A stretch of DNA of 64,000 bases, taken from the NCBI RefSeq assembly GCF_024138145.1, contig NZ_CP099997.1, positions 1,798,001 to 1,862,000 of the forward strand. Direction: 5' to 3'. Position 1 is the first letter of the stretch, and every line of letters starts with the position of its first letter. This DNA is from Natronosalvus halobius. GTDB taxonomy: Archaea; Halobacteriota; Halobacteria; Halobacteriales; Natrialbaceae. The notes under the pieces were generated by a model. It did not search any database and was not told where the DNA came from. It saw only the letters and a list, made by a program, of their open reading frames with translations. Positions 12,839 through 14,806 of this stretch are shown here, piece after piece. The position numbers were made by a program, and so were the translations under genes.

Positions 12839-12958
12839 ACCGGTAATTCCGGATTGGTACCTCGGCGATTTCTGTCCGCCAGATAAAGTACGCCATGCAC
12901 CTGCCGGGTGAGCGTTGACGTGTAGCCGTCTTGTGACCTCAGATGGGGTACTAGACCG

Positions 12959-13267
12959 ATGACTCGAGACCGCACTGCCGATCGATCCGAGACACGTGCT
13001 CGTGACGAGCGACCACCCGCGGAGCGCCGCGACGAGAGCGCTGCGGGGGCCTGGGCCGCCTCGACGGCACTGCAGACGGCGGTCGCCGTCGTCGGCCTGA
13101 CGATCGTGCTGTTCGCGCTCGGGCAAGCATTCGGTGTCGATCTCCTCGGTGTTATCGCTGGCGCGCTCGGAACGCAGGTCGGCATGTGGCTGGCCATCGC
13201 GTTCGTCGTTCTCCTGTTCACGGGAGCGGCGCTCCGAGCAGTGTCGTTCAGCGCTATCCGAGCGTGA
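12959..13267 (+). CDS. Small hypothetical membrane protein
   Basis: A 102-residue protein with a charged, Arg/Glu-rich N-terminal third (1-30) and two predicted transmembrane helices (about 36-60 and 68-95), ending FSAIRA. The AT element AGATAAAGTAC upstream could be its promoter. No family is recognised. Codon use is typical of its neighbours, and the hydrophobic pattern supports a real gene. Confidence 0.6.
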   Translation: MTRDRTADRSETRARDERPPAERRDESAAGAWAASTALQTAVAVVGLTIVLFALGQAFGVDLLGVIAGALGTQVGMWLAIAFVVLLFTGAALRAVSFSAIRA

Positions 13268-13442
13268 TCGATCAGACGACCCCATTTTGTTGAGATGCCG
13301 CGATAGCGGCGCATACCCGTAACGGGTCGTCGCTCGATTCGAGGAGACGAGTGGCAACACCGGTATTTTCGAACAATCTCGAGCAATTGTGAGTTCCAGA
13401 CACACACGTGATTTCGTTACAATAACGAACGGCCGGGAGCGC

Positions 13443-13465
13443 GAAGTCGCCGTAGCGGCGACTTC
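13443..13465. repeat. Perfect hairpin 1 (10 bp stem, TAG loop)
   Basis: GAAGTCGCCG (13443-13452), loop TAG, then the exact reverse complement (13456-13465). This is the first of four similar structures in 250 bp. Confidence 0.9.
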
Positions 13466-13593
13466 TCGCGACTCGGGGAAGGGCAGGCGGTCCACCGATG
13501 CTCACCGCGAGCGAGCGCAGTGAGCGAGCGGACCGACGACTGACCCGTAGGGGAAGGAGGAGTGTTTTTGGTCCAGCTTTTGCCGAGGGACGA

Positions 13594-13627
13594 CGCGCTG
13601 TGCGCCAGCTACGCTGGCGTCAGCGCG
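13594..13627. repeat. Two-part hairpin 2 (7 + 7 bp stem, TAC loop)
   Basis: The inner stem CGCCAGC/GCTGGCG (13603-13609 with 13613-13619) has a TAC loop. The outer stem CGCGCTG/CAGCGCG (13594-13600 with 13621-13627) is separated from it by a small bulge (TG against T). Confidence 0.9.
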
Positions 13628-13640
13628 TTAGACTGTGGTT

Positions 13641-13661
13641 CGAAACGCCTGCGGCGTTTCG
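13641..13661. repeat. Perfect hairpin 3 (9 bp stem, TGC loop)
   Basis: CGAAACGCC, loop TGC, GGCGTTTCG. Confidence 0.9.
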
Positions 13662-13667
13662 TCATCA

Positions 13668-13688
13668 CGAAAGAGCTACGCTCTTTCG
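13668..13688. repeat. Perfect hairpin 4 (9 bp stem, TAC loop)
   Basis: CGAAAGAGC, loop TAC, GCTCTTTCG. Only six bases separate it from hairpin 3. It lies 36 bp beyond the mvaD stop codon on the minus strand, so it may fold at the 3' end of that transcript. Confidence 0.9.
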
Positions 13689-13723
13689 AACGACAACGCA
13701 AAAGGTGGGTAAAAGGTGGTTGG

Positions 13724-14710
13724 TTAGAACAAGTGGTCGTCTTCTTCCTCGAGCAGCCGCGCGGGGCCGCCGACGCCCCACGTGGTGGTCGAGACGCCGG
13801 TCTCGGCGATGGCCTCCTCGACGGTTTCGGCGTGTTCCTCGGTGGTGTTGACGTAGACGCTCGCTCCGGTGTCAGTCGAGAAGTACGCCGGGATGCCTTC
13901 CTCCTCCCGGAGTTCGCGTACTTTGTTGAAGATCGCGAGGGTGGCCGGCTGCCAGTAGACCCAGCCCTCGGGGCCGGTCATCGTCGTCGCCGCCAGCGAC
14001 AGCGAGTCGTGTTCGGCCAGTTCGAACGCCCGGTCGAAGTCGTCGTTGCGGAGCGCGTCGCGCATCTTCGCGATCTGGCCGTGGATGTGCGCGTTTCGTG
14101 CCTGGAACATGTGGCTGTCGGCGGCTTCGTCGTGGGCGTCCTCGGTCTCCTTGTGGTAGGGGACGAGCCCGACGACGATCTTCAACTCCTCGTGGAGATT
14201 GCTCGGGACCCGCCGGGAGCGACAGTCCTCGTCGTTCATCCCGGTGTAGAGCTGAGAAAACGCCCCCGTTACCGACCGGGCGGCCGAGGCCGAACCCACG
14301 CGGGCGATCGTCGAGATGTCCTGGAGGGAGGCGTCGAGGTCAGCAGCCTCCGCGAGGGCGCGGGCCGCGGCCGCGAAGCCCGACGACGACGAGCCCAGCC
14401 CTACATTGGAGGGGAAACTGTTCTCGCTCTCGATGCGAACCGGGTAGACGGTGTGGGCCGCGTCCGACATGTCGCGGGCCTTGTCGACGACGGCCTCGAG
14501 GCGCTCGAAGCCCCGTCCCTCGAGTTCCTCGCCGTCGACGACGTAGACGTCCTCGTCGTGGTCCATCGAGAACTCGACGGTGGTGCGGGTGTGACTCGGG
14601 GCGGTGCAGACGCTGATGCTGTCGTGATACGGGAGTCGCTCGATGTCGTCGCGCATCCCGTGGTACTTGATCAGGCCCTGGATTGGGTGGGCCATCGCCG
14701 TCGCTTTCAT
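13724..14710 (-). CDS. mvaD: Phosphomevalonate decarboxylase (MvaD family)
   Basis: A 328-residue GHMP-kinase-fold enzyme of isoprenoid (archaeal lipid) synthesis. Haloarchaeal members related to diphosphomevalonate decarboxylase have been shown in Haloferax to decarboxylate phosphomevalonate to isopentenyl phosphate, so that activity is assigned by family. Visible features are the N-terminal MAHPIQGLIKYHGM segment, the ATP-binding loop FPSNVGLGSSSSGFAAAA, SASAARSVTGAF, and the C-terminal region YFSTDTGASVYVNTT. MKATAMAHPIQG at 14710 was taken as the start because upstream codons are not conserved-looking. The gene stands alone between a coiled-coil gene and the hairpin cluster. Confidence 0.9.
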   Translation of the reverse strand: MKATAMAHPIQGLIKYHGMRDDIERLPYHDSISVCTAPSHTRTTVEFSMDHDEDVYVVDGEELEGRGFERLEAVVDKARDMSDAAHTVYPVRIESENSFPSNVGLGSSSSGFAAAARALAEAADLDASLQDISTIARVGSASAARSVTGAFSQLYTGMNDEDCRSRRVPSNLHEELKIVVGLVPYHKETEDAHDEAADSHMFQARNAHIHGQIAKMRDALRNDDFDRAFELAEHDSLSLAATTMTGPEGWVYWQPATLAIFNKVRELREEEGIPAYFSTDTGASVYVNTTEEHAETVEEAIAETGVSTTTWGVGGPARLLEEEDDHLF

Positions 14711-14806
14711 ACCCCCACAGGGGTGTGACGACCGCTTAAAGGTCACGGCATCGGAGTGACCGCCGGGTGCACCCGGTCGTAGCCGTCCCGACCGCCGACA
14801 CCTCGC

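Follow-up and report, generated by a model that had tools for sequence, protein, structure and literature searches.

Bacterial REP and BIME sequences are short, dispersed extragenic palindromes that lie mostly behind genes and whose stems vary while the pairing is kept. The attC sites of integrons are also palindromic and variable in sequence, sit directly behind a stop codon, and depend on pairing at the level of the DNA. The usual description of transcription termination in archaea is a T-run that needs no structure. In Haloferax, a T-stretch serves as the intergenic terminator motif, and in vivo termination reached 95% with T5C (PMC7237163). Within the literature on haloarchaeal palindromes, we found the repeats of Haloquadratum alone: the PATEs and SMRs of Haloquadratum walsbyi are transposase-free, palindrome-bearing repeats described as mobile insertions, a small element has been seen nested within the palindromic part of another, and PATEs share near-terminal palindromes with IS605-type transposons (PMC3119063).

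In this study, we analysed a window of 64 kb from Natronosalvus halobius, in which an initial annotation had pointed to four hairpins in gene-free DNA downstream of mvaD. The region at 13431-13708 is one copy of a modular, dispersed, non-coding palindromic element with at least 8 core copies in its own genome, which lies at the 3' ends of transcription units throughout the Natrialbaceae and, more sparsely, in other Halobacteriales. It combines traits of REP/BIME, PATE/SMR and T-stretch terminator and belongs fully to none of them. The family was previously uncatalogued in Rfam and in the publications found. In Rfam, 12900-14800 gave no family at gathering score (the best, chance-level match was Ms_IGR-8, 27.5 of 44 bits), and our literature search returned no publication describing the element or with four of its conserved motifs.

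Results

The intergenic gap at 13268-13723 does measure 456 bp, as annotated, and separates a convergent 102-aa ORF (12959-13267, + strand, without Pfam match) from the stop codon (13724-13726) of mvaD (13724-14746, − strand; phosphomevalonate/diphosphomevalonate decarboxylase, Pfam MVD-like_N), whose 3' end the element adjoins. The four hairpins reported there are real and far above chance. On the + strand, two have 9 bp stems (13641-13661, loop TGC; 13668-13688, loop TAC) and one a 10 bp stem (13443-13465, loop TAG), which reaches 14 bp with one mismatch as 13439-13469. Perfect or near-perfect stems of 9-14 bp thus describe three of the four; at 13593-13628 (loop TAC) the perfect inner stem is just 7 bp, and 15 bp are reached only across a TG/T internal loop. 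Perfect hairpins with a stem of at least 9 bp and a 3-nt loop number 3 in the gap, against 0.0055 expected under a first-order Markov model of the same region, and 6 in the whole window, so that half lie inside the gap. Folded as RNA, 13425-13735 outperforms every one of 100 shuffles on either strand (z -4.4 on +, -6.8 on −).

Two further views of these hairpins did not survive comparison with other copies. The loops are not of a fixed type, since other copies have GAA, TTC, TCC, AAA, ATA and more, and the region, which had been held not to be a duplicated element, is a dispersed repeat; its stems seem unrelated because they change pairwise while the surrounding frame stays. By blastn, the gap matches 12 places in its own genome and 49 of 61 relatives. 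A covariance model of the core found 8 copies in the own genome and matches in 97 of the 194 genomes of the class, the per-genome counts being limited by the candidates scored and therefore lower bounds on copy number. Searching 257 Gb of GTDB genomes for the exact 22-nt tail returned 84 stretches, all in named Natrialbaceae. No phage sequence searched with the element matched it; 19 plasmid records did, the annotated ones in intergenic positions, and gave no lead on mobility. One pair of near-identical inverted core copies lies ~1.5 kb apart (L055 / L126 in G001; C1:3094619 on −, 3096079 on +), which could allow the intervening segment to invert.

Read on the mvaD strand (−), to which all features below belong, the element starts with the 5' arm of a helix, P1, at 13708 and ends near 13431, a border that is approximate and drawn from matches in the own genome and in relatives. 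The P1 5' arm (CCACCTTTTGC, 13698-13708; sequence and covariation) and 3' arm (GGCAAAAGCTGG, 13573-13584; inverted repeat, fold and covariation) form a long-range helix beside the gene end with an invariant TTTT/AAAA, which the initial annotation did not contain. Inside P1 lie a conserved internal loop (CTGCGG / CCTCGG) and the hairpin P2 (13593-13628), whose sequence and length vary among copies with the pairing kept. Module A (13635-13694) is an optional double hairpin, made of 13668-13688 and 13641-13661 joined by TGATGA and flanked by GTCGTT and AACCAC. Behind P1 come a conserved tail, ACCAAAAACACTCCTC (13558-13572; family consensus ATCAAAAGCACTCCTCCYTCC), which provides a second T-run on the + strand, and two blocks recognised from matches among copies: the imperfect palindrome GTCGTCGGTCCGCTCGCTCACTGCGCTCGCTCGCGGTG (13503-13543), another addition to the initial annotation as the CCGCGAGCGAGCG...GAGCGAGCGG block, and GCCTGCCCTTCCCC (13475-13488). 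The distal hairpin (13439-13469, loop TAG) varies in sequence and keeps its pairing in the copies inspected. The family frame on the mvaD strand accordingly reads gene end, P1 5' arm (CRACC or CGAAA plus TTTTRC), CTGCGGTC, P2, GTCCCTCGG and P1 3' arm, followed by the tail consensus, an optional hairpin, GTCGTCGGCCCGCTCGCTCACTGCGTTCGCTCGCGG, GCCTGCCCTTCCCCGAGTCGCG, the distal hairpin and CTCCCGGCC. The T-runs on the + strand are CTTTTGAT / CTTTTGCC. The element has no coding ORF and is too short for a transposase. Between it and the mvaD stop lies a partial tandem copy, ACCACCTTTTA (13710-13720), of the P1 5' arm ACCACCTTTT.

Wherever module A is inside the core, it is inserted at one point, the internal loop of P1/P2 between CTG and (C)GGTC. 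It is missing from the orthologous mvaD site in three genomes (G002, G007, G008), and L004, L005 and L006 have it with no core around it. A perfectly symmetric frame, GTCGTT..TGATCA..AACGAC, is seen in some copies. The TGATGA of module A resembles a Box C/D motif, and several copies have TGATCA. Two of the core-less copies in the own genome (L004, C1:3159332; L005, C2:181538) lie in an IS-rich region upstream of opposite-strand genes that start with MYDLTGFQRDLLY, with an IS200-type tnpA ~0.9 kb away on C1.

In 48 of 62 copies with context, a coding stop precedes the P1 arm by 0-6 nt; in 59 of 75 copies gathered independently by the tail motif, the distance is 0-5 nt. The host genes are ordinary core genes (TFS, TbsP, EngB, GyrB, uL16, thermosome, a geranylgeranyl reductase family protein, acyl-CoA dehydrogenase). 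Four stop-less copies, in Natrinema and in the own genome, lie behind the SRP 7S RNA gene, and in several genomes some 7-13 nt separate the SRP RNA end from the start of the element. Since it follows TFS, GyrB, EngB, uL16, thermosome and SRP RNA genes alike, a 3' UTR peculiar to mvaD, one of the possibilities first raised, is excluded. The presence behind an SRP RNA gene also ties the element to gene 3' ends and not to translation, and we dropped a translation-linked function in which the ribosome at the stop codon would cover the P1 arm. Among 28 readable SRP loci, the element is directly behind the RNA in 6, five flagged by script and one (G228) recognised by eye from CCGACCTTTTACGCTGCGCTCA; at element-free loci, that spot is taken by CCGATTTTA in some genomes and otherwise mostly by weaker T-runs. 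At a tRNA-Leu locus of Halovivax asiaticus (L147, 4439-4641), the 22-bp tRNA 3' end is duplicated ~100 bp downstream, directly abutting the element, and a small palindromic insertion lies between both copies. Convergent versus other neighbours stood at 57:46 against a window baseline of 20:26 with a second gene caller (p=0.22) and at 43:16 with the first; as the enrichment is present with one caller and not robust with the second, it is not claimed.

The proposal that structure is under selection, to be checked in relatives, was borne out: compensatory changes maintain base pairing. In a sequence-only MAFFT alignment of 18 copies, covariation was 0.316, against 0.104 when shuffled and at most 0.064 when slid; 92% of cells pair, and 17 of 25 pairs show two-sided changes. 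Model-fitted sets, which are biased towards the structure by construction, gave 0.369 vs 0.105 shuffled (65 distinct copies) and 0.260 vs 0.084 (81 distinct copies). The same is seen at a single gene end. At the orthologous mvaD site, five genomes (G000, G002, G003, G007, G008) differ in the sequence of P1 and P2 and each is self-complementary; in G007, whose mvaD orthologue is 99% identical and has the core element in the same place, P1 is TTTTAT/ATAAAA where G000 has TTTTGC/GCAAAA, and the P2 stems differ too. The four T-A pairs of P1 are nearly unchanging, and adjacent pairs change freely. Core alignments also contain C-C mismatches that persist across copies and lineages at P1 positions 4 and 5 (ACC/GCT and AAC/CTT haplotypes); with all neighbouring pairs kept, this suggests that an internal mismatch is tolerated or wanted.

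Compensatory changes alone are no proof of RNA, and it is the count of G-U against A-C that separates pairing on an RNA strand from pairing at the DNA level or on two strands. Among 2905 stem cells of 140 distinct copies, 2727 are Watson-Crick, 37 G-U, 33 A-C and 108 other, so that G-U is not preferred over A-C (p=0.72). G-U makes up 1.3% of these cells compared with 8.8% in tRNA genes of the same loci (24 of 272 pairs; p=8e-11), a control that brackets true pairs only and in which A-C is thus not comparable; RNase P RNA loci were left out as too long and insertion-rich for reliable alignment. The stems of module A are more extreme, with 328 Watson-Crick, 1 G-U and 3 A-C. Split by neighbour orientation, G-U:A-C is 23:17 for codirectional and 12:15 for convergent neighbours, which is not significant. 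Selection on one RNA strand predicts G-U far above A-C; this is not seen, which argues against such selection and weakens the structured non-coding RNA that had been suggested. Watson-Crick-only stems would fit DNA-level pairing, two-strand transcription or a copying of one arm onto the other alike.

For the long form, we found neither a mobilising enzyme nor a consistent target duplication: of 72 core copies, only one is flanked by direct repeats. We therefore do not count long target duplications among the general features; they are mainly the trait of a shorter relative. In the long form, the inverted repeat P1 is confined to one end. The search for a parent transposon covered IS200/IS605, and no core or module B match was found near the 56 TnpB/TnpA loci of the genus (178,765 bases), which leaves an IS200/IS605 parentage unsupported. 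Module A lies near 4 of these 56 loci, and at the one inspected (L322) it is ~800 bp from tnpA, off the transposon end. Y1_Tnp genes are present in 8 of 8 genus genomes, and none flanks a core element.

The short relative of the core (GGTCCAG[AC]TTTTGC..hairpin..GCAAAAGGTGG, ~50-70 bp) sits between direct duplications of roughly 20 to >100 bp. What is duplicated is the 3' end of the host gene (purH-like, thiolase, aminopeptidase or cysteine desulfurase, named by eye) or a tRNA-Leu promoter and 5' half. Such loci occur on C1 of the own genome (L022, 296404; L027, 1190347; L031, 2265404; L032, 2379811; L007, 2446648) and elsewhere (L131, L134, L146); L007 is a full core copy flanked in the same way, and at L146 both gene-end copies differ almost solely at synonymous sites. 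An aminopeptidase-like gene end plus short element also forms tandem arrays, with 4 copies of a 124-bp unit in G005 (L137, 1304-1794) and 2 copies of a 109-bp unit in G001 (L130).

Discussion

The term "miniature palindromic elements", one of the options first proposed, comes close to the family found, and the comparison with described systems helps to place it. Like REP and BIME sequences, the element consists of dispersed extragenic palindromes with compensatory stem changes; unlike them, it has a larger modular frame, a long-range helix, T-runs and a start fixed 0-6 nt behind the gene, and we found no positive link to a REP-type transposase. It shares with PATEs and SMRs that it is haloarchaeal, transposase-free and palindromic, with module A inside the core recalling the nesting seen in Haloquadratum, and with PATEs that it is too short for a transposase and shows no consistent target duplication. 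However, the link of PATEs to palindromes of IS605-type transposons has no counterpart at the 56 TnpB/TnpA loci, and the published account of the Haloquadratum repeats does not present them as gene-end elements. MITEs have terminal inverted repeats from a known transposon and usually a target duplication; the inverted repeat P1 of the long form lies at one end only. Haloarchaeal T-stretch terminators (PMC7237163) resemble the element in their intergenic T-run ending at C behind genes, but here the T-run is locked in a covarying helix, accompanied by hairpins and a long conserved frame, and present on both strands. Finally, the element is palindromic, variable and right behind stop codons as attC sites are, but without attC core motifs, cassette arrays or an integron integrase, and its host genes are fixed core genes.

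The structure and position of the element are well supported, and we infer its function from the sequence. In the best reading, to which we give a probability of about 0.5, it would be a strand-symmetric 3'-end or terminator element that has probably spread as a REP/MITE-like repeat. The invariant T4 of the P1 5' arm would end the transcript of the upstream gene just behind that gene, the two T-runs of the other strand would stop transcription from the far side, and the hairpins may aid pausing or 3'-end protection. We propose that G-U, which is A-C on the other strand, is not tolerated because both strands would have to fold. Copies would spread or turn over by a REP/MITE-like or gene-conversion process, as suggested by gene ends that carry the element in some species and lack it in others. 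The near-invariant TTTT, placed 0-6 nt plus 5 nt behind the gene, is a T-run as archaeal terminators have it, and TTTT is found within 18 nt of the stop in just 4 of 46 window genes. Against this reading, T4 is shorter than the T5C tested in Haloferax, and a simple terminator needs neither ~280 bp with conserved non-T blocks nor rapid stem turnover. The lack of a robust enrichment between convergent genes, and of a mobilising enzyme or regular target duplication for the long form, also counts against it. A more specific version, about which we are rather doubtful, is a self-spreading gene-end punctuation, that is, a strand-symmetric palindromic terminator cassette that would attach behind protein and SRP RNA genes, perhaps also behind tRNA genes, and whose P1 arm would coincide with the native T-run, with the second arm matched to it at each site.

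The same data have to be weighed against a selfish, non-autonomous mobile repeat of REP, MITE or PATE-like kind, whose hairpins would be DNA-level substrates of an enzyme and for which gene 3' ends would be safe harbours. The dispersed copies, the modular build with module A present or absent at one point of the frame, the fact that the same gene ends, those of SRP and mvaD, are filled only patchily, the strand-symmetric Watson-Crick-only stems, and the short core relatives between long duplications of host-gene ends all speak for it. Nevertheless, a start within 0-6 nt is tighter than tolerance of a safe harbour requires, no core match lies near the 56 transposase loci of the genus, flanking direct repeats are confined to a single core copy, and the same core genes carry the element across many genera, which looks like retention; we regard this explanation as rather unlikely. 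A structured 3' UTR RNA, regulatory, stabilising or protein-binding, that acts on the mRNA strand appears improbable to us. Helices that covary around a conserved internal loop are what a structured RNA typically shows, and the sense orientation behind genes is fixed, but G-U is as rare as A-C and far below its level in tRNA genes, module A has a single G-U, no Rfam family matches at gathering score, and the element also follows a non-coding RNA gene.

It could also be that structure is not selected at all, and that the palindromes stay perfect because one arm is overwritten with the sequence of the other when DNA hairpins undergo template switching or gene conversion. Such a process would explain why both sides of a stem change without G-U intermediates and why stems turn over so fast at a single gene end; it leaves the conserved frame, the invariant TTTT/AAAA and the position directly behind genes unexplained, and the C-C mismatches of P1 persist unrepaired, so that we consider it very improbable. 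Chance hairpins in gene-free DNA are refuted by the excess of hairpins over the Markov expectation and by covariation well above that of shuffled alignments.

A widespread, covarying and strand-symmetric element at the ends of core genes offers many natural sites at which to test whether structure and T-runs on two strands insulate neighbouring genes. The same sites are useful for asking how such repeats reach gene ends.
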